NCBI GenBank assembly: GCA_035235625.1
Contig: CP141140.1
Coordinates: 44,201,351 to 44,265,350, forward strand
From: Saururus chinensis
Taxonomy: Eukaryota; Streptophyta; Magnoliopsida; Piperales; Saururaceae
Reading direction: 5' to 3'
Length of the DNA: 64,000 nt
Below the pieces are notes generated by a model, which did not search any database, had not been told where the DNA came from, and saw only the letters and a list, made by a program, of their open reading frames with translations. The translations under genes were made by a program, and so were the position numbers. This document shows positions 32,336 to 57,498 of this stretch, piece by piece. Positions within the stretch are counted from its first letter, which is position 1. Each line of letters begins with the position of its first letter.

Positions 32336-32689
32336 CGACGGCCCTCACTGCCCTCCACTCATGGCATCCCTCTCTTCCGGCTAGCTATGGGCCCCTACCT
32401 CCAGCCCCTCCCCCCACCGCCCCCGGCTCCTATGGGCTGCCTCCCGCCTCACCCTATGGCCTCCCAACGGCTCCCCTTGGCAGCCTCACTCCTGCCCCCC
32501 TTGCCAGGGGCCCGGCCCTTGTACTTGCTGCCCCATATGGGGGAGGGGCTGCCCGGGGCCTTCTCCCCACCCCTGCTGGCTGTGGGGCACCCAGCCCACG
32601 CGGTGGTTCTCCTCGTGGACGTTGGCACTCTGGTCCTTGTAGTCGTGGTCCCTAGCCCCCTTGCTAGATTTGCGATGAGACCAACCACT

Positions 32690-33810: not shown

Positions 33811-33824
33811 CTCCTCTTCCACAC

Positions 33825-33841
33825 CCCCCCCCCCCCCCCCC
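33825..33841 (+). repeat. Poly-C run
   Basis: About 17 consecutive C residues inside the copia coding region. It probably contributes to frame loss. Confidence 0.9.
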
Positions 33842-34354
33842 GACTACTCCCACCTCAAGCCTTCGGTTGTCACTGCTTCCCTTGGACCCGCCCTTACTCC
33901 TCCCATAAACTCTCTCCCCAGGCCATCTCATGCATCTTTCTCAGTTATTGCCCTAACACCAAAGGATTTTGTTGCCTCGATCCCAACTCCCATCGTGTCT
34001 ACACCTGTCACCACGTCCGCTTTCATGAATATGAGTTCCCTTACCATGACTACCTCCCTACCCCAAACCGCCCCCCCCCCACCACACTCTCCCTTCCTAT
34101 TTCCATCACTACCCGTACCTCCGACTTGCCCCCACAACAACCACCCCCTCTCCCCTCCCCTTCTAACTCTTCTCCTTCTCCCGTTCCTCACCCCACCCCA
34201 CTCCTCTCCCCAACACCACCCTCCCCCCACCTCCCCGCTCACCCAATGATCACTCGTAGCAAATCTGGGATCGTATGTCCTCGTGTCCCTTTCTCCCTCC
34301 TCACTCTCTCTCCACCTCAAACCAAACCCTCTTCCTTCAAAATTGTTTCCTCCA

Positions 34355-35968: not shown

Positions 35969-35985
35969 AGAACAAATGACACCTT

Positions 35986-35996
35986 CTTCTCTGGGA
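35986..35996. repeat. MULE target site duplication, left copy
   Basis: CTTCTCTGGGA at 35986-35996 matches CTTCTCTGAGA at 57488-57498 in 10 of 11 positions. Mutator-like elements make 8-11 bp duplications. Confidence 0.7.
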
Positions 35997-36360
35997 AGCG
36001 AATCTGCTGGGGAGGGTATTTCGCTCAGCATCGATTGGCCACCAATGGTTGCTTACCACATCACAAACACCAGCGGATTCATGGAGACGCTCAATCTGGA
36101 TGGCATTTGGGTTCACGGCGACATGGAACTAACAATTGGTTCACGTTCACGGAACTGGGATTTGGGTCACGTTTAAATTAACAGACACAGAACTGAAAAC
36201 CCGGGTTCCTAACCAAGACAAAACCAGGTAATCAAAACCAACCTCTCGTACAGTAGAAGCGAATCAAGAAGCTCAGTGATTTTTTTCCCGCCTCTGGTAC
36301 TTGCTCCCTTAGAGTTGACATCGCCACCGGAACTGCAGCTCCTCCCTCTTGATCGCCACT
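35997..36360. repeat. Left terminal inverted repeat of the MULE
   Basis: Pairs with 57150-57487 reversed. The best part is GCGAATCTGCTGGGGAGGGT, then CACCAATGG, TTACCACATCACAAAC, GGATGGCATTTGGGTTCACG and TTTTTCCCGCCTC. The similarity contains indels and reaches about 360 bp. Confidence 0.85.
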
Positions 36361-36860
36361 GAAACTGTCCACTGTAGAGCCTCCCTTTCGATCGCCACCG
36401 GAACTGTCCCTTGCAACGCCTCCCTTTTGATCGCCACCGGCCCTTGCAGCGCCTCGCTTTTGATCACCACCGCATAGACTCGACCTTGACCAAATCCCCG
36501 CCGGAAAACTAGTCAAAAGAACACGGGAGAGAAGATCAGGAGAAAAAGCCCAAACCTTTTTCCCGCCTGTCATACCTCCTCCCTCCTAATCGACCGTCAC
36601 CACTGGAATGGAGGAAGTCGGAGCGCCTCCCTCTTGATCGCCAGTGACCAAACTGCAGCCAGAAAAGCCTCTATTTTTCTTGCCTTTCACACCTCCTCCA
36701 TCCCGATCGACTGTCACCATCGAAACCGAGGAAGTCGGAGCGCCACCCTCTTGATTGACCGCAACCACTTAGCTGCTGGAAAAGCCTCCTTTTTCCTAGC
36801 TCTCACACCTCCTCCCTCCTAATTGGCCGGCACTACCGGAACCAAGGAAGTCGCAGCGGC
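36300..36860. repeat. Tandem repeats next to the left TIR
   Basis: Short units of CGCCACCGGAACTG / GCCTCCCTTTTGATCGCCAC (36320-36470) are followed by two to three ~120 bp units marked by GAGGAAGTCGGAGCGCC and GAAAAGCCTC (36600-36860). Open frames across them on both strands are repeat artefacts. Confidence 0.65.
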
Positions 36861-38295
36861 TCCCAAATAGTAATGCCAAATATCTCTTCATTTGTCTCTT
36901 ATATCATTGTGTTTCTGCATTAATTTTCTTTGTCTAGTCCCTGCTTATTTTGTATATGTTGGTGAAGCATGGTGCGGGGGTCGCCTGTATTTCGTGCTCT
37001 GTTTCTATCGGATCTCTCAATTGGTTCATTGCATTTGTGTCTAGTTGAGCAGTAATGTGCTTTCATTTGGATGTTGTTTTCTTATGTTCATTTGGGACTT
37101 GCTCCTTGCTGCCATATTCATTTGTTTTTAATTTTTCTGATTAGGGTCTGTCCAACTTTTTGGTTATTTTTGTCTGTTGAATAATAGTCACTTTGTTCTT
37201 CTATGAATTTCTTTCTTTTTCAGTTTGCCACGCTCAATTTCTCAAAAAAAAACCTCTTAATGTCTATTATAAAATTATCTTTCGATGCTCAATTGTTGGT
37301 CTATGTTGTGAGCTATTTTGTCAATTATATCTCTTTCTTAGGACGTGAGACTTTGAAATCCCTCATATGGTCAGATTGTTCATATTTTGATAGCCATTCA
37401 CGTCACTTTTAAAGATATTTGCTTAATGCTACAAACTACATACAGGCATCTCATTTGTGCATTTGTTTGTGAATGTGGCTTACATTCATGATTATTGTTT
37501 AGCTTGGTCTTAACTCCTTTTCGTGTTGTTTACCCCTGTGTTTCGTCTTTCTCTATGACTTTGACTTAAGCTTGACTGCTCTTGTATTTTTATGAAACCT
37601 AGAGGAGTTCCGCTTATTTTTTATCACACAGAGGAAATTGGCTTATATTGATTTCATGTGTACTATTGATATGTTATATGTCTCTAGTTTTATGTTATGT
37701 GATTGGCTTATTCTAAAATTGAAATGCTAAATTCTCTTCACAACATTATAACTTTATGAATGCACTTTATGATGTTTCAGGAGTCGTCATTGAACATTTA
37801 GTGTCTTCTCCATAGGAGGCTTCCATATATCAAATCCCTATATCATGAAGAATAAATCAAGTATGTTTTCTTTCATCCCTATGGTTAAATAATGTTAGCA
37901 ATATTGTTGAACTTGTAAGAGTATTGCTGATGTATTATGATTATTGCTAATGATTTAGCATTGTTTTTGATGCTTTAGCATTATCGATGATAATCCTATT
38001 ATCAATAAATTAAGTATGTGCCACATTTTCCAAGCATTATTGCTAAAACCATGTTAGCATTATTAGTAAATTGTTATCGTATAATTGCTAAGACTTTATA
38101 ACATGTTTTGTATAATGATTTGGCTTTATTGTTATAACGTTTGAACAAGCTTATTGATGTATGTTTCACCAACTATTTTAATTTTCTTTTTCATTTTAAA
38201 AGATTCATAACTAAAAATGATTCTTGAATTGAGATCTCTACTCATAAGATATTGAATTATATGGCTATGTTATTCATGGGGTATACTAAACACAT
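36861..38295. other. Non-coding left interior of the MULE
   Basis: T-rich, with no coding frame of note. It is the upstream region of the ULP1-type gene and may contain its promoter and a 5' untranslated exon. No clear TATA box could be chosen. Confidence 0.4.
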
Positions 38296-38328
38296 TTGTT
38301 AAACATCTATATACCTTCGTACTCATCC

Positions 38329-41300
38329 ATGGATATCTATGCAGAAGTTTTTGAAATGAAGAAGAGGAGCCTAGGCCTTGCACTAGGGTCAAAAAATATT
38401 AGGCGTGAGTCACTAAAAGTCCCTTGCACCCCCATGAGACTAACAAAGTCAATCAACATTCTCTCTACCATACCGCAGGTGAAGAACTTGTTTGGCCAGA
38501 CCCCATTCATCAAATTGCTTAATGCCATAACCATTATTTGTCAGGCATCACTGTTTGAAGTTATTTTGGGTTATTGGTCTGAGGCTCAACCTGGGGTCAC
38601 ATTCAGGGGACACAGAGTGGACTTTACTGTGGAGGATGTAGCCCTCATCACTGGCCTAAAAATGGGGGGCGATCGGGTGGTATTCGGCCAGAAACGAGAG
38701 AGGGGTGAGTTTTGTAAGGGCCATTTTGGGAAGAAGGTTACAAGGTCTGAAATTGAAAGGAAACTGGACCTGTTACAAGGCAAGACTGATTCTAAATCAA
38801 TGGAGGATTGTGCAAGATTGATCGTCTTGCACATTTTTGTATGCCTTCTATTTACTTAGACCAACCATGTGGTCAAGAATGAGTTAGTTGACCTGGTGGA
38901 AGACATGGGCAACCTCCATTGGTATGACTGGCCTCAAGCCATTTATGACTTTTTAGTAAGTTCAGCCTTAGCCCTCCATAGGAAGCTTGTGTTGAAGGAG
39001 GAAGGCAAGTTTGAGGGATACGGATCATTGATTGGAGCCGCATTTGTCCTATAGGTATTTTATACTTTGTACATAATTATATTTCATTTTTATGTGGGAG
39101 CTACAAGATACTAATGTATATCTATTATATGTCATAGGTGTGGGTGTTTGAGCATTTTCGGATGTTCATATCCCCTATGCCGGAGAAGCTACCCCGATTT
39201 TGCAAATGGCCAAATTGTGGCCTTGTAAAGGGTGAAAAAGAGGGAACACACCACAGGTCGGTGGGTAGATATGCACAATTGTTCAAATATGTGAGACCAC
39301 AAGAGGTAATTGCAACAAGATAATATATATAATGAAATATTTGAGAGTTTTTTAAGAGTTGTTCAACTCTTAATTTTATTGAAAGTTGGATGTTAAATCA
39401 TTGTGCATATGTTAACTGCAGGTTTTATCTGTGTTGGTTCCTGCTGCAAATGAGTCATATCTATTTGAAGGGGCAAGAAAAACTTCAAAGAAAAGGAAGG
39501 TAGGAGTCGAGGCTCTGGAGCAGGGGAAGGATAGTTGGGGTGGGCTATTGGTCTTGAAGTCCTCCATAGAGAATATGTCCTCTGCACTTAGAGTTGTGCA
39601 GAGTGCCATGTATATATTGCATGAGGAGGGTTACCATACAGGCCAGCTACATGGTGTAATTGACACCATTTCAGAAAACTTTTCAAAATTTAAAAGCATG
39701 GCTGATCATTTGGTGAAGAGGCCACTGAAGAAGATGAGGCATGCCTCACCCCCTAGAGCTGGGAACAAGGAGGAACGTGGTGAAGCAAGAGGTGAGGGTG
39801 TGGAGGGTGAAGAGGCGGAGGAAGAGGAAGGAGATGAGGAAGAGGGGGGAGAGGAAGTAGAGGACAAAGAGGAGGGGGAGAAGATGGGGGAGAGGAGGGG
39901 GGTGAGGAGGAAGGAGAGGATGGGGGCAAGGAGGTGGGAGAGAAGGAAGGAGAGGAGGGGGAGATGATGGGGCAGAGGAGGGGGGAGATGATGGGGGAGA
40001 GGAGGGGGGAGAGGAGGAAGGAGAGGAGGGTGGAGAGGATGGAGGAGATGAGGGGGGAGAGGAGCAAGAGGTGGGTAAAAGAGAGGAAGGGCCAGATGGG
40101 GATGAGAGAAAGAAGGATGAGGAGGGAGATGGATATAAGAATAGGGGTGTTGAGAATGTGGAATGTCCATCAAAGAGGCCTGTACGGGTGAAATATAAAA
40201 CCAAGAAGTATGGGACTCCATTTACACAAGAGACGAAGAAAACAAAGAGGGAGAATAAGGCATTGATTGAAGACGTGGAGGCTGCAACAATTGTTGTTTC
40301 TTCCCAGCCCTCAACCAAGCAAACAGTCCCTACCATCCTTCGCCAGCCATTGAAGATAAATTTATGCAATCCCCTCTCTAATTTGACTAAGTGGGACCAA
40401 GATACTATTGAAAAATTCATTAAAGACGGGAGCCACTCCATGGCGAGGGTTGTTGTCGCTGACAAAGACTTGATAGATATGTTAAAGGCGGAGTACATAT
40501 CCTCTAATGTAAGACTACAATTTCTCCTTTTTACATCTTAACTAGTCAATATTGCTTATATATTAAATGTATGTTTCGATGCATGTAGGTTATAGATGCA
40601 TATATGTATATGCTAGAGCAGAGGGCCTCTAGATCAACTGGAAATGCCTTTCCCAAATGCCACTTTGGGAGCTTTGCCTTGCAATATTATTTTACCCAGG
40701 TATGGTCAACAATATAATGTCTATTTATTGGATTAAGTTAGGTTATGGACTAAGTCAAATCGACACCAATTGCAACAGAAAGATGTGGCAAAAGACATAA
40801 TGGATGACCTGGCGACCACTTGTTTTGGAGCTGATAAAGATTACCCTGACATTATCTTCTTACCACTATGTGACAATGCACATTTCCACTTGTTGGTGGT
40901 AGATGTGACCGACGGTGAAGTGAAATGGTTTGATTCAATGCCAGGGTATGGCCATAAGAAAAGGCTTCCGAATGTGAGGAAATTGGTGAGTAATTGTATG
41001 ATTAAGTTAAAATGTCTTTTTTTAGTGATGGCTTTTAAACTAATTCAGCTAACATGTCTAGGTCACAAACATAAGAGTATTACTTGAGGAGCACCTTAAG
41101 GATTTTAATCCTAAGAAGTGGAAGATCAATAGTCAAAAGGGACCATATCAAGGCAACGGGGTTGATTATGGGTTCTTCCTCATGCGTACAGTCTATTGCA
41201 TTAGTTCTGGACTGCCGGTTGATTTTACTCAGGTATATGGCCTAATTGTAGATATCTATTTTAGTTTCTTCTTTGTACCTTCATTCAAAGTGAGGGGATG

Positions 41301-41393
41301 CAATATTAATTGTTTCAACTATTTTAGGAAGATATCTCTCAGCGCTTGAGACTTGTAATGGCTGCAGAGATCTTGAGAGGCTATGTTGAATGA
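38329..41393 (+). pseudogene. ULP1-type (C48) cysteine protease gene of the MULE, disabled
   Basis: Seven exons fit with GT-AG borders: 38329-39054, 39138-39305, 39422-40508, 40589-40699, 40779-40985, 41062-41232 and 41328-41393. Exon 1 encodes a DUF1985-like N-terminal domain (RGHRVDFTVEDVALITGLKM). Exon 3 has a Glu-rich low-complexity tract. Exons 5-6 encode the C48 peptidase core: the catalytic His in AHFHLLVVD, Asp in WFDSMPG, and the oxyanion Gln in PYQGNGVDYG. Family members have DCG at this last site, so the nucleophile Cys is replaced by Tyr (TAT 41167-41169). There are two in-frame stops in exon 1 (TAG 38857-38859 and 39052-39054) and one net frameshift in the Glu tract. Such genes cut SUMO or ubiquitin-like modifiers, and MULE-borne copies have no settled role. 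The start ATG at 38329 is a choice; 38296 is also possible. Confidence 0.8.
39780..40140 (+). repeat. Purine-rich Glu-coding tract in the ULP gene
   Basis: GAGGAGG-type sequence encodes an acidic Glu/Gly run in one frame and Arg/Glu/Gly in another. The frame entering at 39422 ends at about 39967, and the frame that continues to 40508 is offset by one. The shift lies between about 39890 and 40075. Confidence 0.8.
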
Positions 41394-42008
41394 GTAGGAA
41401 CCTCTACGTGATGGTAAGAAACTTAAAGTTTATATATTTATGATGAAAACTATATTGATGGTACATTTTAGCATTTATTTTGATAGGTTTCATCTCTCTT
41501 CTAATGGACCATATTAGTTAAAATTGTGACTCATATAGGTTAATCTTGTTTAGATAGGAACATTTTGTTGTTATACTATCTTTTGATATTACTATATAAT
41601 ATAGCATTGTTTCAGTATCAGTCCAAGAAGACAACTATCTTTTTCTGAAAGGATTTTGTATTTCTAATCTTACAGTTTTTGGACGAGAAGTTAAAGGAAA
41701 CAGTGCACAGGTAACTTCTTTACCTACCTCTAGTTTTTAGCTCATCTTGTTCAGGTTTTCAATGGATGGTTTATTTGTTGCTCAAGTAGATTGAAATGTC
41801 ACTTTTAGAGGTTTGATTATGCAAATATTTGGTCGCAGAAGGCAGAGTTTTAAAAATTTGGCCTTCAAGAATAGGGTCTGGTGAGCTTGTTGTGGAAGTT
41901 TTGTTTGGTCCAGAAGCAGCTAGGGGAAGCTTTGGTGAAATTGTTGGAATATCTATAAGCATTTTGGAGTTTCTCATTATATATCAATGTCAAAAATAGG
42001 GGACTCTG
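41394..42008. other. Interval between ULP gene and GEX3-like exons
   Basis: No clear gene. It holds the 3' side of the ULP gene and possibly the edge of the captured GEX3-like locus. No domain was recognised. Confidence 0.35.
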
Positions 42009-42535
42009 CATATAGGCTGCATGGGCATCATCTTTGGAGTTCAGGGCCTGTACTCCATCGGTTCGGCTATAGCCAAGGCTGCAAGGAGAATGTGACCAAT
42101 TGTTATTTCACTTCAGCCCCTATTATAGATCGTTGCCAAGGAAGTCTCCATGTGAGGTCTCATTAAACCTATTTTACATTTCATTCCTCATTTATCTTTC
42201 CGCTATTACTGTCCATTTCTTTTTATTTTCACCTTCCCCATCATTTGAATTTGTAATGTTTTTCACCATTCTCATCCTGCTCAAGCAGATGGTAAATACT
42301 GAAGGTCAGCTTTATTCCTTGTCTATTCAGAAGCCTCACTATAACTGGATACAGGATTTTAGTGAAGTAGACAGCATTTTTACAGTGGCTCCAGGAAACA
42401 ATGGTCGCCTCTTCCTGGCTTTCCCGAGGAGATCTATCATAATGGCACTTGAAGTTTCATTTGGAAATGTTATTTGGAAACAAAGTGTTGGCCCCTTGAA
42501 TACACAGGAGAGTTCCCCTGTGGTTGATTCCAATG
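42009..42535 (+). pseudogene. Captured GEX3-like (PQQ/beta-propeller) gene fragment, two exons
   Basis: Exon A (about 42009-42151) encodes AYRLHGHHLWSSGPV and then CYFTSAPIIDRCQGSLH, with donor GTGAGG. Exon B (42289-42535), after acceptor CAAGCAG, encodes NTEGQLYSLSIQKPHYNW, FTVAPGNNGRLFLAFPRRSI and IWKQSVGPLNTQESSPVVDS, with donor GTAAAT. The PQQ-like pattern (GxLYSLS, LALDVSxGNxxW, PVVDSNG) resembles plant GAMETE EXPRESSED 3, a membrane-linked protein of egg cells and pollen. Only an internal part is present, with no start, end or membrane segment. It lies 177 bp before the first uncoupling-protein exon on the same strand. Family identity is from memory and moderately sure. Confidence 0.55.
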
Positions 42536-42712
42536 GTAAATGTTTTTGACATATTATCTCTATCACAGATTCTGATGTATGGACGGTAATTATTTTCTTG
42601 CCATACTCATTTCTACCATTGGCATCTTTATCATTTTGAAATGAGGCAGTTTTCATTATTTTCTTATGTTCTTTTGCATTTTTGTGAATGCATTGTTGTG
42701 GCCATTGTACAG

Positions 42713-45014
42713 ATTTGCACAATCCCTTTGGATACTGCAAAAGTCAGATTGCAGCTTCAGAAAAAAGCTGCTTCAGGAGATGTTGGAGTACCAAAATACA
42801 AGAGAATGTTGGGTACTGTTGCGACAATAGCAAGGGAAGAAGGTTTGGTGGCTCTATGGAAGGGCATTGCACCAGGGTTGCATCGTCAGTGTATTTATGG
42901 AGGGCTACGGATTGGGTTATACGAACCAGTATGTCTTGGGCCCATTCTCCAGTTGTTTGCCTACACATTCAACAGTTATATTGACATTTTTTATGTATTG
43001 ATGTCGTGCTAGAATATTGTGCAGGTTAAATCCTTTTATGTTGGTAAGGATTTTGTTGGCAATGCTCCATTATCCAAAAAGATACTTGCTGCGCTTACAA
43101 CTGGTGAGTTATGAGTACTAGCAATGTTTTTATTTATGCTTTGGAGCAACAAAAACAAAATCATGGCGCAATCTACTAGGTGTAAACTCATTGTTCATTG
43201 ATTTTCTCAATTTTAATGTCAAACAGGTGCTATAGCAATCACTGTAGCCAATCCAACAGATCTTGTGAAGGTTCGCCTTCAATCTCATGGGAAGCTTCCT
43301 CCTGGTGTACCTAGGCATTATTCTGGTGCATTAAGTGCTTATTCAACAGTTATCAAATAGGTACTAACTTTTTCATTCTAATCATGTCATAACAAGTAAC
43401 AATATAACTAAAAAATGATCCATATTTTAGGAAGGATTTGGAGCCTTATGGACTAGAATTGGGCCTAATATTGCCCGAAATGCCATTATTAATGTCTTTG
43501 AGATTGCCAGTTATGATCAAGTGAAAGAGGTATAACTTATACAATATTTGATCTTTACTCTGTGTTAGCCTAATATATTTTTGCATTCTGCAATTTATCA
43601 CAATTTTTTAATGTTTTTTTCAATGCAGACAATTTTGAAAATTCCAGGTTTTACAGATAATGTTATTACGCATCTATTGGATGGTCTAGGAGCAGGGTTC
43701 TTTGCAGTGTGTATTGGTTCCACTGTTGATGTGGAAACATTTATGTACTTTGGACTATTATTTTGTTCTTTTTGCATATTTTAAGATTATATATTGACAT
43801 AGTTTACGATCAGGACGAACTGAAGTTAATAGGAGTGTGTCTTTACCTTTAGCTGGATAAATAAAAAAATTCCTAATTTTGCTTTTTTTTTTGCTTTAAA
43901 TATTTCAACCATTAATTTTTTTAAAAACTTCGCCTTTATGTAGAACCATGACACTTGCTGATAATTTATAATGGAATTTTGTATTGTATTTTCACAACAA
44001 AATTTTCTCTTTGGTGGTAATACAACGTCCTATCTCTTCTTCTGTTAAGTTACTGAAGCATAGTCCATGTAAAGCCACTAGAAAATATTAAGAAATGGTT
44101 GATGTGAAAGATGTTTTTGGGCAATCATAATAATAATTTGCAGACGAACTATTTAGGTAAGAAGTAAGATGAAATCAAGAATGATGGGAGACACAACATA
44201 CAAAAATACACTAGACTGCTTCAGTAAGACTTTGAAAAATGACGTATTTCCTATTTTGAGATAGCTTCCTTTCTTTGAAGTTATTTAGTTGGTAGTTGGT
44301 ATTTTCTGTATCATGAAACTGAATAGGATGTGAAATTTGTAACCTATAGCTGCCCTGATGTTTCCTCAGGGACCTTTGGCATTCTACAAAGTATTTATCC
44401 CTAATTTTGGTCGGCTTGGATCATGGAATGTGATCATGTTTCCGACCTTGGAGCAGGTAAAGTTGAAATTTCCTTTTTTTTAAATGTTGCCTATCTATAT
44501 AAGTTGAATTTGTTGTCTTTAGCTACTTACGATGATATGTTTAGATGGAGTCGGAAATTGATTAAACAATTTTTGCTTTGCGTTTTATTTTTGGTCAGTT
44601 GATCCCCTAAAAATTTTGCTTTATGGTCATAGCCACTAGATATTGAGTTGGGTTCAAACAGACCCAATAATCTCAATACCTTCTGAAACATTTCTAGTTA
44701 ACATTATCAAATCAAGTAGTTAAATTCCCAGTATAGTTTCTGAAACATTTCCAGTTAACTTTTATTTGTTGACACTATACCAACACGTCTGAGTATGAAT
44801 TGGGCAATTAGTATTGATTTAATTTGTATGTGAAAAAAGAAATATTCTGAACTTAAAGTCAGATATGGAGATATTTATTTGAGTCTGCATCATCATCATT
44901 GTTGATCTCTTAATTAACAATTAATGGTGTTGCTACTTTCACGTTTTTATTCATATTGTTCCTTTTTTGTATGAATAGGCCAAGAAATTCTTCAGAAGAG
45001 ATTCAGCTAATTAA
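42713..45014 (+). pseudogene. Captured mitochondrial uncoupling protein gene, exon 1 missing
   Basis: Eight exons of a plant UCP/PUMP carrier fit: 42713-42928, 43025-43103, 43227-43360, 43431-43529, 43629-43730, 44169-44243, 44370-44456 and 44979-45014. Carrier signatures are PLDTAKVRLQLQ (repeat 1) and PTDLVKVRLQ (repeat 2). Repeat 3 reads GSTVD...KSRMMGD, so its conserved Pro is lost. KIPGFTDNVITHLLDGLGAG and [16 protein letters not shown] are typical of the family, and the ending AKKFFRRDSAN fits the usual C-terminus. Exon 1, with the N-terminal helix start, is absent and replaced by GEX3-like sequence. Exon 4 ends in TAG just before its donor, and the acceptor of the KSRMMGD exon is weak. 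Introns are retained, so genomic DNA was captured, not an mRNA copy. Active family members dissipate the proton gradient in the inner mitochondrial membrane. Confidence 0.88.
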
Positions 45015-46263
45015 GAAACTGGATTTCCAGTCATTCCGAGGGAAAAATAGATATGCAGACAAAAGGTGCTGTGGGAGTTTTTCCTATTGTTGACTAATAA
45101 GTTTTCCCAGTGCTAAAGTGTCCTTTCATTATAAACATTGCCTCAAAGTTTCTGGAATTTGTTGAGCCGAATTTGCAGCAAAGACATATAATTTAATATC
45201 TACAGACTAGACCTACTTCATTTGTGCTCTTTTACAGGATAAGTTGTTCAAACATTTTGCCCTTGTGATAATCGAAACTTCAGGAATCTTTTCCACTGTA
45301 GTGTTTTGCTGTAAGGGAGCAATTATAAAAGAAATGGGGGTTTTTAATGCCCTAACAGTGTGTAACATCAAAACATGGACATCTATAGTGATACTTTCTT
45401 TTTGGCCGATTAAAGTTGCATCACGCTTGAGGTCTCTCACAGGTTAATAAAGATCTGGAGAAGGCCACCTCGTACTTTGGTTGCACTGGTTCAGTTTTCG
45501 TCCTTCCGTGAATTCTTTCTAATCTTATTGATCGATACGGGATAATTGATTAATGCGCCATTGCCCAATGAATTAGCATTGCTTGTCAAAGATTAGTGTA
45601 CAAAAAATTGCAAGTGGCTTATCTATCTACTTTGGACATGCCTTTTTTTAAACTCTCACTTGTTCGGAAAATTTGGTTCAGACTGATCTTCGGTTTAAAT
45701 TCTTCAAACTTATAAACGACTTTGCCACAAGCTTAAATCTTTGCAAATCATGTACATCATTTCCCATTTCTTTCGGCCTTCTCTGTTCCTTTATCTCCAA
45801 TTTAATTGATATTTATAAATTGTATTACTATATAAAGCAGGTTGAGTAACGATAGGAATTTTTATTTTTACCTATGTACCCATATTTTTTACCTTTACCC
45901 ATCTTTAAAACTTAATTTAACTATTGAATTTTTTTTATTGAACTAGAAAATATTTATATTTGTTAAACTTTCAAACTTTTTGTATTGTCCTCAATTGGTA
46001 TGTGATATGAACTTATTTTGATAAAATTATTTACGATAATTTTTAAATAATTATCACATGTTTTTAACTGAAAATGCTCATATCATGTTTGAAACAATAT
46101 TGGCCACTTCATTGAGGAAAATTGATGGGCGGATATGATCTCTTCCTATATTTATTTGTAGAAAGATAAGTCTAGTGAAGGACATATGACTGTTTGCTGT
46201 GGATTGCATAAAAATGTCTTATGAGCGTCTTGTTTGCTTAAGAATATGGCAGAGAAGGGATTT
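45015..46263. other. Downstream of the captured uncoupling-protein gene; no gene seen
   Basis: Probably contains its 3' untranslated region and captured flank. Small open frames at 45213-45447 on both strands have no recognisable content. Confidence 0.4.
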
Positions 46264-48366
46264 TGTAGATCTGATAGTTGTGGTTGGTTGGATTGATCTC
46301 CCAATGGTGTTGTTTTAAGGTTAGAGTGACATACATAATTAATCGAGTTGGAGAATGAAGTCCTCACTCAGATTCAAAATGTCTGCTCTTGCAAACAATT
46401 TATATATAGAAAAAAAAATATTATTGCAGATCATAGGCAATTTGAATACGTCAGGCTGCAGAGGCAAGTGAAATTTGTGCAGCATTATTTGTACACCATT
46501 GCAACGTTATCGGGCAACGTTGCAGCCTTAACGCTGCCACATTGCAACAATAACGCTGCAACATTGCAGCAATATCGCCACAACGTTGCAGCGTTATCGC
46601 TGCAATGTTGTAGCAATAACGTTGCAACGTTGCAACGCTATCGCTGCAACATCGCATCAATAACGCTGCAACATTGCAGCAATATCGCTACAACATTGCA
46701 GCATTATCACTGCAATGTTGCAACGTTATCGAGGAACGCTGCAACGTTGTAGCAATAACGCTACAATGTTGCAGCAATATCGCTACAATGTTGCAGCGGT
46801 ATCACTGCAATGTTGCAACGTTATCGAGGAACATTGCAATGTTGTAGTGTTATGCTACAACGTTGCAGCAATATCGCTACAACATTGCGGTGTTATCACT
46901 GCAACATTGTAGCAATATCGCTACAACATTGCAGCGTTATCACTGCAATGTTGCAATGTTATCGAGGAACGCGGCAACGTTGTAGCAATAACGCTACAAT
47001 GTTGCAGCGTTATCGCGGCAACGTTGCAATGTTATTGCTGCAACATTGCATCAATAACGCTGCAACATTGCAGCAATATCGCTACAACGTTGCAGAGTTA
47101 ACACTACAACGTTATTGAGGAACATTGCAACGTTGTAGCAATATCGCTACAACGTTGCAGCGTTATCACTGCAATGTTACAGCAATATCGCTACAACGCT
47201 ACAGTGTTATTGATGCGATGTTGCAGCGATAACATTGCAACGTTGCCGCGATAACGCTGCAATGTTGTAGCGTTATTGCTACAATGTTGTCGCGTTCCTC
47301 AATAACGTTGCAACATTACAGTGATAACGCTGCAACATTGTAGCAATATTGTTGCAATGTTACAGCGTTATTGATGTGATGTTGCAGCGATAACATTGCC
47401 GCGATAATGCTACAACGTTGTAGCATTATTGTTACAACGTTGCCGCGTTCCTCGATAATGTTGCAACATTACAGTGATAACGCTGCAACGTTGTAGCAAT
47501 ATTGCTGTAACATTGCAGTGATAACGCTGCAATGTTGTAGCGATATTGCTACAACGGTGCAGTGTTCCTCGATAACGTTGCAACATTGCAGTGATAACGC
47601 TGCAACATTGTAGCGATATTGCTGCAATATTGCAGCATTATTGATGCAATTTTGCAGCGATAACGTTGCAATGTTGCCACGATAACGCTGCAACGTTGCC
47701 GCGATAACGCTGCAACATTGTCGCGTTATCGCTACAATGTTGCAGCGTTCCTCGTTAATGTTGCAACATTGCTGCGATAACGTTGCAACGTTGTAGCAAT
47801 ATTGCTGCAATGTTGCAGCGTTATTGTTGCAATGTTGCAGCGTTAAGGCTGCAACGTTTTAGTGATAATGTTGCAACATTGCAGTGATATTGCTACAATG
47901 CTGCAACGTTGCCCGATAACATTGCGACGTTGTACAAATAACGCTACACATATTTCACTTGCCTCTGCAGCCCGCCGTATTCGAATTGCTTACGATCAAG
48001 GAGTCATGTATCTAGTACAAGTGCAAGTGTGATTTTATAGTAAATATTATCATGCGATTGTTTTATTATGTCTATAGATGTCACCATATATGCAAATTAG
48101 GGTTTGATTGCTTGGAAAAGAAAATGAAGTTCCAATTCAAAGGTCTCTCTGGTTCTGCAGATCATTATGTCACCTATTTTTTCTTCTAATACTCGTGGAT
48201 CTGCAATAATAATATTTTTTCTATATATAAATTGTTTGAAAGAGCAGACATTTTAAATTTGAGTGAGGACTTCATTCTCCAACTCGATTAATTATGTCTG
48301 TCACTCTAACCTTAAAAACAACACCATTGGGAGATTAGTCCAGCCAACCACAACTATCAGATCACA
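46264..48366. repeat. 2.1 kb foldback (giant inverted repeat) of GCAACGTTGC-type palindromes
   Basis: The outer arms TGTAGATCTGATAGTTGTGG (46264) and CCACAACTATCAGATCACA (ending 48366) pair over ~230 bp. The pairing includes 'aattaatcgagttggagaatgaagtcctcactcag' and 'ctgcagaggcaagtgaaat'. The right arm has ~195 bp (about 47997-48195) not present in the left. Between the arms, 46490-47960 is filled with short units such as GCAACGTTGCAGCGTTATCG. The left half carries CGTTATCGAGGAACG and the right half its reverse complement CGTTCCTCGATAACG, with the switch near 47200. The whole unit can therefore fold into one hairpin. It may be a nested foldback or long-TIR element. No target duplication could be confirmed. 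Confidence 0.75.
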
Positions 48367-48796
48367 GTTAAGAAACAAAAAACTGTCGGAAATGTTATTT
48401 GTATTGACTCTGTCCAATTTTTAGATTTTTCGCTTCTCTGTTTACTGCCTTAGACAATTCAAACTAAACTGTTAAAAAGACAAACTCACTAAGGGACAAT
48501 CATGAAAACCTTGATCATGGAAAATCACAGGGGTTCGGCAAGTGATACAACTATGTCCATCTTTATAATGTGAGCCTGATAGGTCATGCTGGAAATATAC
48601 CAGTTATATCTATTTTGCTGCTGGGAATAGAGATAATATAAATTACATTTCTTCTTTCAGTTATTTGTCAATATACATGGGAAGATATCTCAAGATTTCC
48701 CATTCCATACGCTCAAATCATCCTCTAGCTGTAAATTCTCATTAAGTAAACGTGTCAATACTATAACAAACATAAACCCTTCATTATTACCCTTCT
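48367..48796. other. Interval between foldback and CABIN1-like fragment
   Basis: No gene seen. AT-rich. Confidence 0.35.
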
Positions 48797-51520
48797 ATCT
48801 GTTCTAAGAGATGTGTATGCCCGATCAAGAGTGCAGAAGCCCCTAGTCTTCTCTAGGAGGCTCATATAAAGCAAGGTGTATTTACGGATGCAAGTGATGA
48901 ATTTTTGCGAACTTTTAGATAAACTGACTTCCAGAAACTTCTTGTTTCCACCAAGACCTAGAGTTTTCCACCTGTTTATTAAAAAAAATTAGTGAAATAT
49001 TTTCCTTTATCACCAAAATAGAAAGACAGAAGCTATCAATATGGTTTTACTCTTACCTGCCCTTTCTAACCATCCCATCAATCTCCCACATATTAATTGT
49101 AATTGAAGAACGAGAAGACCTGAAGCAGAATGAGAGTTCATCCTTAGCATGTTCAAAGTCCCCTGTTTGACGACTTATGTAAAGGCCTTGAGCCATCTTA
49201 TACCTTGCATTATGGAAATGTTTGAGCTCACCTTCAACACAAATTTTAAGAGCTGAAAGGCAATCCTTAAAAAGGATGTTCCAGGCCTCTTCCAATTGGG
49301 GTAGCTCATCATCCTTTGGTTTCTTCTCAGAGCCAGCTTCTATATTGGTTTTAGCAGTCATACGAAAATGAAGCTCCTCATCACTCCAACCAAATATCTT
49401 CAATACAGTATCCTTAGTTGACTGACTGAAGGAATGTGCAGTAACAACCTGATAAGGCAACGGTTATGTCAAAAATGAATATCAATATTTCAAGTTTAGC
49501 AGACACAAACACAACAGCATTCACTAACATTTCTCTCAGACTTGAGGAAATGTTAGTTTCATTCACAGCTCTACCGTTACCAATATTTTTGTTGACGAAT
49601 TCAGTAACTTAGCTAATGGTTTTTCTTGACATTATTGGAGATCCATCCCAACATTCTATAGGCAATCTATATCATCCAACATAAAAAAATCTCAAATAGG
49701 TGATGTATAAGACACCCTTTCTCATCAAGTCACATTGTTAGGATGATGAGCATATCTGTCGATATAAATTATATGCATTGCCAGTTTTAACACCATTCGA
49801 GCTAGAATAAGAAACCACTAGGAGTACTAGGCATTCAAACTGAAGACCTTGTGAAGGTGCCTCTTATTGCTGTTCAGCCAAGGCGCAATTCCAATTGGTC
49901 TAACTAAAATTATGAAAGATGGTGCTAAAAATAAAAACTAAAATCTTGACAAAACATCATTTGCATATAGTATAAAAGTAGGTGCAATAGATTACTCAAA
50001 ATAGGGGAAAAGAAATTAATGAGCTTTTGTTTTTCTCAACTAATTACCACCTGTAGTGAAGATCCAACAAATAAAACATTGACAAAAGGCTCTAAGAAAA
50101 CTAGCCTGAAGGGCATCCATATTCTGCTTTCCACCTTTATAAAGTAACTTCAAATGCGAAGCATGCATCCTATAAATAGTATCTACAGCTGAATTAATCA
50201 AGTTGAGAGCTTTCTGGTAATAAGAAAAGGCCTTTGCAGCTGGGTACTTCATCTTTTCACAAAGTTTACCAAAGTAGAAAGCATGCAGCCAATCAGGCCT
50301 ACAGTATAAAAAGATACAAAAAAATTAACATTCCACTTTGTTGATCAGGGACATGCAAAGGAATACAGGTCAGGATTGGCAATAGCATACTTGTACTCTG
50401 AAGCTTTCTTGAAGTGTTTCATATAATTCTGGCACAGAAACATCCAGACTTCATTCTTTTTTGGTACAACAGTTCTTTGCTCATAAAATGGAACAACATT
50501 CTGAAGGCTGTCATAATACACTAGTGCCAGTAACTCGTGCATCTAACTCTGAATATGATCACATTAAGAAATCAGATGGGATTATAAGCAAATGAAACAA
50601 CAATCAATAGAAATAAATTACTAAGGTTGTAAAACATACCTTCTGAGAAGGAGTTGTTGCTACAGCCACACTCATTAACGAACATCTCCTAGCCCTTCTT
50701 CAACTAACTTCAACTCTCTGAGGTAAAGAATGATGCTTTCTCCATTCCACAACATTTATGTGCTTGCTGCCATCATTCAGCAGCAAATCTACCTCCTGAA
50801 TAAGAATGCCTCATTATGTCATAGTTGAAAAATTATAAAATCATTTGGCAATAATGTCAACAAAGACAGCTCGCATTGATGCTTATTTGAACACAAAATT
50901 GCTTACCTCATCATAGATAGTTGCAAGCCGCTTCCAGCTGTCAAAGCGCAAGGGGTTGTATATTAAATCATATTTCAATAGGTTTACATGTTGCTCAACA
51001 AAATCTTCACCTTCTTTAGTAAGTACAAAACCAGTCCATTTATCTGTTGCATTCATTTCTTCAGCATGAGCTAGAAAGTAGTAAAGGTTGCTGTACAGCT
51101 CCAGATACTGCTCACAACTACAAATTTGAACACATCAAGAAAAATGCATTGAATTGATCTGAAATTAAAATTGGACTTCATATTTTAAGCTTAATAAACT
51201 GATAAAAGTCAGTTTAAAGGCACTTGGTCAGAGAAAATCTTGACTAATTTGAATAAAAAACTTCAATATAAATTTAAATGGAGTTATATAAATTGTGTAC
51301 CTTGTTGCAGCCAACACTTCACAAATTTTTAGGCCTTTTTTTTATCAGAAAGCACTTTATTTATGATAGATTTTACATTACTTTCTGTAGAAGCTATATC
51401 AGAAAGTTTGTCTTCACATAAATCAGGATCATCTAGAAACTTGTCGATTGGATTTTCTTTTAAAATATCTTCAAGTGGTTGAGGAAAATGGCTACGAATA
51501 GCTCTTAATATTTTTCAAAG
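48797..51520 (-). pseudogene. Captured CABIN1-like (calcineurin-binding, TPR) gene fragment, at least seven exons
   Basis: Minus-strand exons in order, approximate ends: 51301-51510 (ILRAIRSHFPQPLEDILKEN, FLDDPDLCEDKLSDIAS), 50907-51117 ([20 protein letters not shown]), 50640-50795 ([18 protein letters not shown]), 50392-50542 ([20 protein letters not shown]), 50106-50298 (SYYQKALNLINSAVDTIYRM), 49057-49448 (DCLSALKICVEGEL, SFCFRSSRSSITINMWEIDG) and 48797-48973 ([20 protein letters not shown]). The order and content match the middle of plant CABIN1-like TPR proteins, which act in the HIRA histone chaperone complex in animals. Stops occur, for example TGA in the 50640-50795 exon where an Arg is expected, and after KIINKVLSDKKKA in the first. 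One donor reads GC. The N- and C-terminal parts are absent. Introns are retained. Confidence 0.75.
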
Positions 51521-52962
51521 TTTTACCAAGATAGCGGACAAATTGTATGTGATAAATAACACTTATTTTGAATTCATCGTCTAGTTTTTTAATGATTTCC
51601 AAAACAACATGGAAAAAAACATATTGACATGGTGTTTGTGAGAATGTAGATAACAAAGCCTGCTTTTTTCATGAACTACAAATCCAACATAAGGTGTTAT
51701 GATTAGACAAATATTGCAGCCAAATGATAGGATGCTGAAATGAAATGAAATGATAGGATGCTGAAATGAAATATTGCAGCCATGTTCTTAAATGGTTTTA
51801 TTTAAATCCCCCATCACGTCATTACTTCACATATTCCAAATCAACCCTCTGTGAGACCATGGGAGTTCCAAACATATACATAGATTGCAAGTTAGATACT
51901 ATAATACGACACACTGAATCAATTGATGGAATATCACCATAAGCATCCACTGAACCTCATTTACTAGAAAAGAAAAGAAGATAAACAAAATGGGCCTAAG
52001 GTAACGGCTATGAAGTTTCAGAGTAGGTGAAGGCAAGGTGCAGGATATAACACTAAAAAGAATAAGAAATTAATGAGAAAATTAGTCTTCTTTGGTCACT
52101 GTTGGGAGAGTAAGTAAAGTGCTGCTTGATATAGAAAAATAATAGAATATATTATCAAGTGTTAACTGTTGTGAAGTACCAAACAATAACACAAAAATAG
52201 AAAGTACGAGCAATATCTGATTATTAATCTGTATCCTTTTTGCACAAAAAACTACCAAGTTTCTACTTGCATATGTGCAGTGTTTACAAAAAAATTGATT
52301 AGTTGCTAAATACATGACTATCACAAAAAAATCCCTTATCCTCTCCAAAAAATTCTTCACAAGTATTGTATGTTCAAGCATTCTGCACAATAAGTAGACG
52401 AAACTGCAATGTACGTATAATGAGGATAGCAGTCTTGACAACTCCATCCCCTAACAAAAACAAGCTTCCACCTGCATAAACAAAACTATAGTATGCTCAA
52501 TCCAAGGATTAAGTTTTGATAAACATATAATATGCATCTTTCAAATACAATATCCAACCTAGATAGGTTGTTGAGAGCTACTTCGGTCTAAGTAGTGATG
52601 CCTACTTCCAATGGTATCTATGTTGCTAGTGATCAAATCCCCTTGCATAGGTATAGAAACATATTGCATCTGTAAACATATTCAGCTGCTAAGATTTGAA
52701 GTTATACATATGTATATTAATGATGATAACCAAAAGGAAAAGATTAGGAGTTTTACAAATAATAAATTCATCATGCTGCAACCATGTTGGTCAGTGATCT
52801 TTGCGGGTAATTGGCGATGCAAAGAAGTCTCCGGTTGGGAATTTATTTGACTAAGTTGAGTTTGCATGTAATCACTTGGAAGTCCATTGGTTAATTCCTA
52901 CACCATAGAAAAGCGTATTTCAAACATATGTATTTAGCTAAGGTTAGTATACAAGTCAATCA
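51521..52962. other. Interval between CABIN1-like fragment and transposase
   Basis: Minus-strand coding-like sequence at 51540-51640 (for example EIIKKLDDEFKISVIY) may be a further CABIN1-like exon in another frame. The rest is AT-rich without a recognisable gene. Confidence 0.35.
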
Positions 52963-55179
52963 CTAAAAACAAAAACATAATACCTCGATACAACAATTGT
53001 CCATATTTAATCTAGTGGCCTTCTTTTTGGGTAGTGTTTTATTCTTCTTAGTCCTCTCAAGACAACTTTTGATCCTAGGACCACCTCGCTTTCCTCCTTG
53101 TTTTACTTTGAAGCCCTTAACTAGTGGGGAAGTTGCACTATCATTAACATCATTAACTTGTGCTTTGCCACTTCCACTACAAGTTATGTCCACTCCAAAA
53201 GAATCATGCTGGCTATCACAAACCCTACTATGTGAGATGACATCAGGTTGTTGTGAAAGTACACAATTATTACACTCTCGCACTTCCTTCAAAATTATAT
53301 CCACATAGTTTAGGGTAATTAAAGTTGCATCCTCAGTTAGTGTTGCTTTTGTTGTCAAATTTCTAAAAGCCAGACATAAATCATTATTCCTCCTCATGAG
53401 AGCAACATTCGGATCTGCTTCAATTATAGAACCACGACGATTAATAACACTACCAGATTTTGCTTCTTTAGTCCATCTTTTCAGAACATAATGTGGAGGC
53501 AACTCATGTATCTTGAAGTGATCAAGTACCCTAAATGCATGACGGCATAAGATACCCACAAAATTGAACTTCTTACAACTACAATCAACTACATTGGTTG
53601 ATGGGTCATAATTGACAATGTGTTTGTGATGTGTTTGATCCATTTCAATTGTACACTCCTTCATCACACCATGATCAACAACCTCTATTACAACACAGTT
53701 TAGGCAACCTAAATATTCCTTTTCGATCATCTTGAATATTACTGGCGTGTAAACACTTGAAGCATACTTCATGATCTGAGAATGAACAGTCACAATTGGC
53801 ATGCTATGTTTCATCTTAAATTCAGCATTCTCTTCTTTACGACGTCTATCAGCCAATAGCCTCTCATAATGATAAAAAAACCTGCATAAATTATGCTCAG
53901 ATTTCAAGTATCCTCTTAGAATACCGTTCATGCTTTCACTCCTCTATGTGGATTTCATATCACCTGTGAACATATGTCGCCCATAAACCATTGCCCATTT
54001 CTTTCTTTCTTTGAATAGCCCTTCTAGCCATTCATTTCCATGAAGTTCATACTTCTCAAGCATATTATCCCATGCTGTGTAAAATTCTTCTTCATCCTCG
54101 TAATCATAAATGCATTTGCTGAAGTCATGGGCAAATGGCTTCTTTCCATCAATAACTAAATTAAATGAGTGGTTAAGATGCTTACAGGCATTCCTATACA
54201 TATGCCACACACAAATACAATGATGGGTATTCGGTAAAATCGAAGCTATTGCACTAGCCATTGCCTTATCCTGATCAGTTAAAATTGTCTTCGGATGACT
54301 ACCCATTGTATTTGTGAATGTCTTGAACAACCACTCAAAACTTTGGATGGTTTCATCATATAATAAAACTGCTCCAAAAATAATGGTCATCTTATTATGA
54401 TTTAAACCCACAAACAGACCAAATGGACGACAATATTTGTTGGTCCTATATGTGGTATCAAAGCAAACAACATCTCCAAAATGATGATAATCCATAATCG
54501 AAACCGGATCTGCCCAAAAGAAGTTTGTTATTTTATGATCTTCATCATATTGCATGCTATACTCAAATGAGGAATTTTGAGTACACCTCCCTTTCAAATA
54601 CTTGATTATGGCAAAAGCATCTCCTTGGTCAATTGTTTTTTGGCGCTTCGTACATAAGTAATTATTATAGTCCTCCTGAATAAAGCCAAGGTTCTCAAAC
54701 CCCCCTACTTGCTTAGCCAGAAATTCAATTGCTTCTCTTGGGCATATCCTAGAACCATCTGCTATGTCTATAGTAACAACTTGAATAGTACTCATTCTCC
54801 TTTGCGACCTTAGCCTATTAACATAGACTTGGTTTGTGACCTCATGATTATGTTTTTCTTCAAAAGTTCGAATACGCCATGCACCATCTTGTTACAAATT
54901 GATGACCAATTGGGCTTCACATCCAACTCTTGTTTCTGGTCGAGGATTCTTCGGATTTTCCTGTCTCTTATCAAATAGTCTATGACCTTCTTTGGAGCAA
55001 CAAAATCTTCTATAACACCGTTGACCTTTCACATTTGTACGGGAGCTGGCTCGACGAATGCTAAATCCAACATTTCGGGCATACTTATTGTAAAATTTAT
55101 ATGCTTCTTCCTCGGAAGAAAATCTCATACCAACTTCTGGCTCCCATATCTCCCTTCTTTTTTTCTTCTGTAGGATCAC
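52963..55179 (-). pseudogene. MULE transposase, FAR1/FHY3-type (MURA-like), two in-frame stops
   Basis: One exon of 739 codons including the stop, from ATG 55179. Residues ~18-95 form the FAR1 DNA-binding domain (FYNKYARNVGFSIRRASSR, CCSKEGHR, RVGCEAQLVI). Residues ~225-400 form the MULE DDE domain, with Asp in VVCFDTTYRTNKYCRPFG (~241), Asp in ILTDQDKAMA (~302) and a candidate Glu near NEWLEGLFKERKKWA. Residues ~535-555 form a SWIM zinc finger (CSCKKFNFVGILCRH). A basic Lys/Arg-rich tail follows. In-frame stops are TAA at 54892-54894 and TAG at 53944-53946; the frame is otherwise unbroken. The host FAR1/FHY3 light-signalling factors come from this class of transposase. Here the position inside a TIR element argues for a transposase and not a host gene. 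Confidence 0.88.
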
Positions 55180-55600
55180 TTGATTTACCGAGGTCCACTT
55201 CTAATTCTTCCATTTGAAGCCTACACAATTAAATAAGAATGAATCACATACCATTTCATAAGTATTACTTCTCACAAGGAATACGGGAAGCCAATAACCA
55301 ATCATGAAAAAAAATCTTTTAACCAAATACTCATAAGTCTTCACTCCATTTTATATGCTACAAGGGCCAATACATGTTTCCAACTCATGGGCAACAATGA
55401 TTCAGCTCAATATCATACTACACAAAATGGATCGCATCAAGTGATAAGAAATTCAGCATGTTATCTCATGTTGAAACCCTAAATTCTTCTTTTTCTCCCC
55501 AATGCATTGTAACCACCTACTTTTTTTTTAATCACATTGCAACGGGTAAAAGATAAATCAAAATGTGCAACTGAAAACAATTTACCTTGCCCAATCACTC
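55180..55600. other. Upstream region of the transposase
   Basis: On the minus strand this is the 5' side of the transposase, so it likely holds its promoter and leader. A 5'-untranslated intron is possible. No clear core promoter motif was chosen. Confidence 0.3.
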
Positions 55601-55604
55601 AGCG

Positions 55605-56435
55605 GCTAGCAGAACCCAAGTGTAACACTGTATCACCAGCAATAACGTTGCAACGTTGTAGCATTATAACTGCAACGCTGCAGCGTTATTGTTGTAACAT
55701 TATCGAAGAATGCAGCAATGTTGTAGCAATAACGCTTGGCTGGCAGAACCCAAGTGTAACACTGTATCACTAGCAATAACGTTGCAACGTTGTAGCATTA
55801 TCACTGCAATGCTGCAGTGTTATTGTTGTAATGTTATCGAAGAAAGCAGCAACGTTGCAACAACGTTGCAACAACGTTGCAGCGTTATTGCTACAACGTT
55901 GCTGCATTCCTCGATAACGTTGCAGCATTGCAGCAATAATGCTGCAATGTTATAGTGATATCTACAACGTTTCAGCGTTATTGCTGCAATGTTGTAGCGA
56001 TAATGCTACAATGTTGTTGTGTTCCTCGACAACATTGTTGCATTCCTCGATAACGTTGCAACAATAGTGCTGCAACGTTGCAGTGATAATGCTACAACGT
56101 TATTGCTGCAACGTTACGGCTTTAATGCGGCAACGTTGTGGCGTTAATGCAGCAACGTTGCAACAATAATGCTACAACGTTGCAGCATTGCCCAATAACG
56201 TTGCAGCATTGCACCAATAACGCTACAACGTTGCAGTGATAATGCTGCAACGTTGCAGCATTGCCCGATAACGTTGCAACATTGCACCAATAACGCTACA
56301 ACGTTGCAGTGATAATGCTGCAACGTTGCAGCGTTATTGCTACAACGATGCGGCGTTAATGCTGCACCGTTGCAGCAATAATGCTACAACGTTGTAGCGT
56401 TGCCCGATAATATTGCAACGTTTCACCAAAAACAG
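55605..56435. repeat. Second cluster of GCAACGTTGC-type palindromic repeats
   Basis: Same motif family as 46490-47960. Two ~130 bp direct copies begin GGCTAGCAGAACCCAAGTGT and GGCTGGCAGAACCCAAGTGT (about 55603 and 55738). Left of ~55870 the motif TTATCGAAGAATGCAGC appears; right of it the reversed type CATTCCTCGATAACG (55906, 56040). The cluster is therefore also inverted about a centre, but without the long outer arms of the first. Confidence 0.75.
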
Positions 56436-57149
56436 AGCAACATATACCTGCAGAGATCCTCCTCAATCTTATCCGTATTATCTATTCTATTAAAAAAGGG
56501 TATGAACATAGCACGTTACAAGCTTTATCTTAAAAAAACACAGCCTGCATAAGATTATAAACATAAAATGTTTACCATTACCACTAACTGGAGTTCAAAA
56601 GTGGTAGAGTTGATATGTTGCAATATATAGCACAACCCCTGAATTGTCTTCCTCAACAACAACATAAAAGAGCCGCATAATCATATCTATGATTGCAGTA
56701 GCCCTCGTAGTCACTGAATTGTCGTCCTCAACTACAATAGATTTTTGCAGCCACTAGGAGCATTTTTTGAATCGAAGGGCATCGTCCCTCCTCTCCTCAT
56801 TTCATCTGGACCCTATCTCCCTTTCTCCCTGATTGTATTGCACCTAGCTGTGAGAAGCGGGAAAAGAAGAGTAAGAGGGCGGTCAATCAGGAGATGACAC
56901 CGGAAGTTGTTGTTTTTCTGAAAGGATTTTTACTCCTTGTCCAGAGGAACCAAGAGCCTCAGGAACAAAGAGGAGGTGGAACAAAGAGAAGACGAACCAA
57001 GAGCTTTAGGAACAAAGAGGAGGTGGACAACTAGAGGATAACTTACATTGAGGTGGAGTGCAATGGGTGCCGAAAACAGATGAATGAGTATCTTCCTCGG
57101 CTCCGATCTATGTGATAAGTCTGGTTCCAGTGGCTCTTGTTCATGATCG
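56436..57149. other. Right interior of the MULE; no gene seen
   Basis: Unique-looking sequence with short frames and two near-repeats of CCAAGAGC(C/T)T(C/T)AGGAACA followed by AAGAGGAGGTGGA at about 56950 and 56998. Confidence 0.4.
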
Positions 57150-57487
57150 ATCAAAAGGGAGGCACTACGGTGGATGATTTCGGTGGCGACGGTTGATAAA
57201 GAGGAAGTACAAGAGGCGGGAAAAAAGTCCTAGGTTTTTCTGAATTGTTCTAGATTTGCGTCTTTTGTACAGAGGCGGGGTTTCTCTATTCTGATTTCGT
57301 CGTTGTTAGAAAATCGGGTTCCTGATTCCGTGAACATGAACCAATTCCCGGTTTTATGTCACCGTGAACCCAAATGCCATCCAAATTGAGCGTCTCCGTG
57401 AATCTACTGACGTTTGTGATGTGGTAAGTACCCATTGGTGGCTAACCGGTGCTAAGCAAAATACCCTCCCCAGCAGATTCGCGTCCT
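57150..57487. repeat. Right terminal inverted repeat of the MULE
   Basis: Reverse complement of 35997-36360 with indels. It ends CCCTCCCCAGCAGATTCGC followed by four or five further bases. Confidence 0.85.
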
Positions 57488-57498
57488 CTTCTCTGAGA
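57488..57498. repeat. MULE target site duplication, right copy
   Basis: CTTCTCTGAGA, one mismatch to the left copy at 35986-35996. Confidence 0.7.

Follow-up and report, generated by a model that had tools for sequence, protein, structure and literature searches.

A probable family of giant Mutator-like elements with a FAR1-MULE-SWIM transposase and serially captured host genes in Saururus chinensis

Can a single Mutator-like element (MULE) of more than 20 kb hold a transposase gene, a protease-type gene and pieces of several host genes, and spread with all of them? The question is raised by a locus on contig C1 of the Saururus chinensis genome, analysed here as a window of 64 kb (C1:44201351-44265350); coordinates without a contig name are those of the window. 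The locus very probably belongs to a real family of giant elements with terminal inverted repeats (TIRs) and a FAR1-MULE-SWIM (Jittery-like) transposase, which captured host genes serially and spread together with this cargo. The initial annotation had proposed one Mutator-like element with long TIRs, a transposase, a C48 protease gene and host pieces, and this is supported by the ends, by their flanking duplications and by sibling copies at other loci.

The element runs from 35994 to 57486 and is 21,493 bp long. It is bounded as one unit by inverted ends, as had been claimed: the ungapped cores of the TIRs, 35994-36154 on the plus strand and 57326-57486 on the minus strand, are 161 bp each and 86% complementary. 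The left TIR begins GGAAGCGAATC in the window copy, in contrast to GGACGCGAATC in seven of the eight other loci compared. A perfect 9-bp target-site duplication, TCTTCTCTG, flanks the element at 35985-35993 and 57487-57495. A near-perfect duplication of 11 bp had been described at first; the duplication itself was confirmed, and its 11-bp length and imperfection were rejected. The borders 35986-57498 given at that time were likewise replaced by the present ones, which follow from the TIR alignment and the 9-bp duplication. Just left of the element, at 31550-35663, lie reading frames with gag-like and RNase H-like stretches that we take to be of Copia type; since they adjoin the element, it has an older retrotransposon next to it or around it.

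The genome searched comprised 516 Mb in 11 contigs. Searches with the two ends gave 46 and 42 matches; scoring was confined to the best 40 among 177 and 170 candidates, respectively. Ends were paired by orientation and distance, unpaired ends in the match lists were left out of the element count, and 29 candidate elements, including the window copy, were read. The second end of one of them (C2_30.1) was not located, so that 28 elements were counted, and their flanking duplications were scored by eye. A perfect duplication of at least 9 bp was found in 20 of the 28, a duplication with one mismatch in two (C1_63.8 and C1_50.6), one with two mismatches in one (C10_31.7), and no duplication in five (C2_48.2, C3_3.64, C3_3.56, C3_5.66 and C8_27.0). 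Because the same ends bound 28 located elements, 20 of them with perfect duplications, the ends are not due to chance. Most of the long copies measure 18-26 kb.

Six full-length siblings were read whole. They are 20,074-21,079 bp long and colinear with the window copy, cargo included, and five of the six have perfect 9-bp duplications of their own. The initial annotation had proposed to look in the genome for further copies that share both ends and cargo; such copies exist. The siblings are 95.7-96.1% identical to the window copy and 97.6-98.5% identical among themselves. Three stretches of the window copy, of 385, 455 and 388 bp, are absent from all six. The 455-bp stretch (43727-44181, plus strand) contains an intron with exon edges of a captured uncoupling-protein (UCP) gene, and it is present in the window copy, in the donor gene and in deletion derivatives of 9-10 kb (see below). 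In two copies of a second subfamily, which we call B, the alignment to the window copy continues across the 385-bp stretch and covers most of the 388-bp one. An origin of the three stretches as insertions into the window copy was thereby ruled out; since they are found in the donor, the derivatives or the B copies, the siblings have lost them, and the window copy represents an older type. Unrooted trees place the window copy with the derivatives, apart from the siblings, and when the donor was added it joined the derivative side.

Two elements on contig C3, at C3:3563201-3589478 and C3:3635923-3657953, lie about 46 kb apart, have the same right flank, share most of the left flank as far as it was read, and show no duplications; the pair probably arose by local duplication after insertion. 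Another span, C4:47404970-47437882 (C4_47.4), is 32.9 kb long and has both ends and a perfect duplication. Its four interior samples matched nothing that we read, and it possibly carries another set of cargo.

The origin of one host piece can be followed to its source. The segment at 42590-46062 (plus strand) holds eight exons, their introns and the 3' flank of an uncoupling-protein gene. A reading frame spanning the first of these exons has a PDB match to uncoupling protein 2 (6.8e-24), and the exons of the window copy give Mito_carr matches. The donor, with introns, lies at C6:42553436-42556976; over the 8,001 bp read there, homology to the window is confined to 42590-46062 and ends at both capture borders. 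The segment had been annotated as a captured host gene, and the donor on contig C6 establishes this by sequence. No TIR tip was found within the 8,001 bp read at the donor, in a search that also missed a truncated derivative. All eight donor exons are open, and six of them fit the exon map of the window copy with the expected borders; the E-F intron was read by eye. We presume these to be exons 2-9 of the gene, whose first exon was not located. The donor is 92.3-93.9% identical to nine element copies. The UCP frame is interrupted by stops, frameshifts or a deletion in seven of seven copies, which rules out a working UCP cargo. A few bases are common to donor and element at the right border, and a few unmatched bases lie between them at the left border. 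These border bases fit template switching, without proving it.

Immediately left of the UCP segment lies a piece of a second host gene (41800-42581, plus strand), cut at 42581 and with a provisional left border. We take it to be GEX3-like; its profile matches fall below the Pfam cut-offs. A third piece, with several exons, lies at 48749-51600 on the minus strand and presumably derives from a CABIN1-like gene; no Pfam family matched it. Thus, of the three captured host genes first proposed, the UCP gene is confirmed by its donor, and the other two pieces are present under names that we assume.

The two subfamily B copies, C7_40.2 (19,506 bp, perfect duplication) and C3_5.66 (18,171 bp, no duplication), show what lies at these places in relatives of the window copy. 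Their match to the window breaks off at 42581 and resumes at 51601; in between, pieces are rearranged, and the UCP and CABIN1-like pieces are missing. Otherwise the two copies are largely colinear with it. In C7_40.2 the junction is followed by a further exon that we assume to be GEX3-like, and the joined exons give a beta-propeller match across the junction (2.3e-6, below the Pfam cut-off). At this junction (42580-42581) 14 of 43 genome matches stop. Since C7_40.2 continues the GEX3-like piece past it, the UCP segment has taken the place of the terminal part of a piece captured earlier. In C3_5.66, a Copia-like piece (by a motif that we presume to be diagnostic) and an open reading frame (ORF) were seen at element positions of about 6650-8208 and 9858-10071. 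We assume the ORF to be TOPLESS-like; its WD40 match of 13 bits is below the cut-off, and a PDB search with it gave no match. Subfamily B may have caught other host genes.

The subfamily with the UCP and CABIN1-like pieces, subfamily A, also gave rise to shorter elements. In two of these, C3_32.2 (about 10.6 kb) and C1_63.8 (9,256 bp), the left end is followed by UCP from 43161 on, a tandem array, the CABIN1-like piece to 50966 and the right end; the transposase, the C48 gene and the GEX3-like piece are all missing. The 5.1-kb element C7_39.4 has the same breakpoint at 50966 and lacks both UCP and transposase, and the CABIN1-like piece was found at 96-98% identity in nine of nine further elements of the 5-kb class (501 bp sampled in each). 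Elements with internal deletions, in size classes of about 10 kb and 5 kb, have thus spread as well. A different deletion is seen in C11_8.2 (7.9 kb). At C3:42860000-42865000 a UCP-bearing deletion derivative has the left-end region of the element fused to UCP from 43501 on; no intact TIR end was found in that interval.

The transposase gene lies at 52963-55200 on the minus strand. Two in-frame stops interrupt it in the window copy; two of the six siblings keep an open frame of 754 codons, and one of these is C2_48.2, whose protein has the domain order FAR1-MULE-SWIM of the Jittery type. The pieces of the window copy also match FAR1, MULE and SWIM, and the score of the MULE domain (PF10551) is 98.5 bits there and 99 bits in a sibling. 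The FAR1-type transposase that had been proposed is borne out by these matches. Of 681 protein matches, the 120 listed are 38-52% identical, and those with names are mostly FAR1-RELATED SEQUENCE-like plant proteins.

Between the left TIR and the GEX3-like piece, at 38356-41393 on the plus strand, lies a seven-exon gene with PMD/DUF1985 and Peptidase_C48 matches (KIU/VANC-like), which agrees with the protease gene of ULP type first annotated there. The exons come from our own exon model, with GT/AG introns in all seven copies. In C2_48.2 the pieces of this gene score 39.4 bits for PMD, 36.9 for DUF1985 (cut-off 35.1) and 51.3 for Peptidase_C48, all above the curated cut-offs. The window copy scores 21.3 bits for PF02902, just above the cut-off, and 20.8 bits for DUF1985, below it, and has two stops in exons 1-2. 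The position that we take to be the catalytic cysteine, on active-site residues that we assume, is kept in six of six siblings and is a tyrosine in the window copy. Exons 1-2 and 4-7 are undamaged in four of the six siblings. Exon 3 contains a 12-bp tandem repeat (39868-40064, plus strand) whose frame varies between copies, and in all seven copies read the frame is broken somewhere in this repeat or the rest of the gene. Either our model errs at exon 3, or every one of these copies is damaged. The gene is common to subfamilies A and B, so it is not evidently a recent capture. With its damaged C48 gene and the stops in its transposase, the window copy is not autonomous now, as it had been supposed to be by type; it is a defective, older-type member of the family.

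How might such a family have formed? The core very probably consists of the TIRs, the transposase and the PMD/DUF1985-C48 gene. MULE transposases bind the TIRs, and cut and paste the DNA between them. The ends, duplications, copies, junctions, UCP donor and derivatives were observed directly. We infer that the family's own transposase moved the elements, by cut-and-paste movement that would leave 9-bp duplications, and that capture proceeded through template switching during gap repair or replication. Host DNA was very probably taken up stepwise, from an ancestor with a longer GEX3-like piece. In subfamily A, 3.5 kb of UCP DNA took the place of the 3' end of this piece; the second half of the element holds a CABIN1-like segment of 2.85 kb. 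The enlarged element very probably went on transposing and gave rise to the internally deleted derivatives of about 10 kb and about 5 kb, which spread in turn. Copying-in of host DNA during repair or replication has been argued for animal Pack-TIRs in the account of PMC8277862.

Several observations weigh against this history. The five elements without a duplication include a full-length sibling (C2_48.2) and a B copy (C3_5.66). For C3_3.64, C3_3.56 and C11_1.1 the placement in subfamily A comes from samples and from UCP/GEX3 genome matches only. Five of seven interior samples from C5_13.5 and C4_47.4 match no element read; C5_13.5 has the B-type GEX3 junction, and C4_47.4 is tied to the family by its ends and duplication. 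A donor is at hand by sequence for UCP alone among the three host pieces, the names of the other two being our assumption. Subfamily B has different DNA where the CABIN1-like piece lies in A, so that this piece may have been gained in A or lost from B. Omega for the transposase is 0.68, with a bootstrap interval of 0.46-1.15; over the transposase, the C48 gene, UCP and the CABIN1-like exons, every usable interval includes 1, two short exons giving no usable one.

The same locus could be read as a mosaic, in which a small ordinary MULE is surrounded by nested insertions of other elements and gene pieces and the 21.5 kb never moved as a whole. Array lengths do vary, one B copy holds the piece that we presume to be Copia-like, and the siblings lack the stretches of 385, 455 and 388 bp; yet the 455-bp stretch is a retained UCP intron region, and the B copies cover the 385 bp and most of the 388 bp. 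We reject such a mosaic because the six siblings, each at another locus, keep the same order from end to end, five of them within perfect 9-bp duplications of their own, and we regard it as exceedingly improbable. That segmental duplication or ectopic recombination spread the 20-kb copies seems very unlikely. It would suit the five elements without duplications and the pair C3_3.64 and C3_3.56, whose right flank is shared and whose left flank is nearly the same, and which does look like a local duplication. However, the perfect duplications of 20 of the 28 elements differ between elements, and the borders fall at the same TIR ends; the flanks of 19 elements were compared over about 30 bp outside each end.

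Two clusters of palindromic repeats had been noticed in the element. Both are there, and they proved to be 22-bp tandem arrays built on the palindrome GCAACGTTGC, one in the middle (46499-47932) and one between the transposase start and the right end (55604-56433). With one mismatch at most, GCAACGTTGC occurs 49 times in the window, 48 times in the two arrays and once at 1000-1999; elsewhere in the element it was found 0 times, versus 0.25 expected from a mononucleotide shuffle. Across seven copies the middle array measures 1246-1911 bp and the right one 697-844 bp, and four derivatives keep 25, 30, 31 and 39 motifs. An inverted repeat surrounds the middle array (left arm 46264-46432, plus strand; right arm 48198-48366, minus strand). 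The region 46105-46492, and with it the full pair of arms, survives in the window copy but in none of the other six full-length A elements; the orientation of arm and array differs in subfamily B and in C7_39.4.

The PMD/DUF1985-C48 protein might act like VANC or KIU, binding the GCAACGTTGC arrays and stripping DNA methylation from the family, so that a large element could have escaped silencing. We hold this to be rather unlikely. In its favour are the PMD and DUF1985 scores above the cut-offs and the C48 score in C2_48.2, the cysteine kept in every sibling, and the near confinement of GCAACGTTGC to two arrays that are non-coding and variable in length, that lie in one case upstream of the transposase, and whose motifs persist in four derivatives. 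Arabidopsis VANC proteins, as presented in PMC5735166, carry DUF1985, and their targets are often variable tandem repeats. On the other hand, the arrays may be sites for the transposase, or minisatellites with no function, and VANDALs are described as non-TIR in PMC13317346. Because the C48-gene frame through exon 3 is broken in every copy read, we put the probability a little lower. A wider scheme, which we consider unlikely, would make the family a self-protecting engine of gene capture: the DUF1985-C48 protein would bind the family's own arrays and lift silencing, and the 20-kb autonomous-class element and its array-keeping derivatives would multiply host segments of several kilobases. If the pairing of arrays and protein were true, a FAR1-class MULE with TIRs would be equipped with an anti-silencing system.

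The element has a MULE (DDE) domain, long TIRs and a 9-bp duplication; MULE duplications range from 8 to 11 bp according to PMC6446971. Like Pack-MULEs, as PMC6431247 presents them, it holds host gene DNA between MULE TIRs, here the UCP segment with its donor, and probably moves by cut and paste. None of the Pack-MULEs of 2004 exceeded 7 kb, most were 1-2 kb, and they are mobilised by transposase in trans, in the summary of Jiang et al. 2004 given in PMC6431247. Unlike these, the present element has a transposase gene of its own (broken in the window copy), long copies of mostly 18-26 kb and single segments of about 3 kb; its derivatives of 9.3, 10.6 and 5.1 kb are without transposase. Like KAONASHI (KI) and MULEs of melon, rice and grape, it has a C48/ULP gene beside a MULE transposase, and ULP is reported in Jittery-like and TIR MULEs (PMC2528002). 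KI elements are described there as non-TIR, in contrast to the long TIRs here, and none of the ULP-carrying MULEs as described in that account has this set of host pieces.

The grapevine elements Mutavine-1 (17.7 kb), Mutavine-18 (16.2 kb) and Jitvine-2 (14.4 kb) are also large and multi-copy, and a grapevine Mutator family carries cellulose-synthase exons with introns, that is, intron-bearing host DNA in a MULE (PMC2528002). The present element is larger and combines a transposase, a DUF1985-C48 gene and several pieces of host DNA in a single unit; the same genome also holds the UCP donor and a subfamily without the UCP piece. With VANDAL/VANC of Arabidopsis it shares a DUF1985 protein and variable tandem repeats in non-coding parts, in the description of PMC5735166; it differs in its FAR1/SWIM transposase and long TIRs, and a VANC-like function here is putative. 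As in the Jittery group (group 36 of PMC6446971), the transposase has a FAR1 N-terminus and a SWIM C-terminus and the element has TIRs, whereas its size and its 9-bp duplication differ, the table there listing 8 bp or no duplication length. PMC2528002 already documents MULEs with ULP genes, grape MULEs as large as 17.7 kb, and captures that include introns. What stands out is the combination of size, transposase gene, several cargos, relatives without the UCP piece, and the donor. Stepwise gene capture becomes visible in one genome, through UCP-free relatives, an enlarged element that spread, its deletion derivatives, and a donor whose homology ends at the borders of the captured segment. The family also shows that a MULE containing both cargo and a transposase gene can reach many copies at a size of about 20 kb; the first Pack-MULEs, at 1-7 kb as given in PMC6431247, are far smaller.

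Two further repeats lie elsewhere in the window. A long purine-rich (GA) stretch at 391-1709 is present in two copies of 81% identity with similar short borders. An inverted repeat of 1,051 bp and 90% identity (9350-10400 and 14705-15755) possibly marks another TIR element, of about 6.4 kb.

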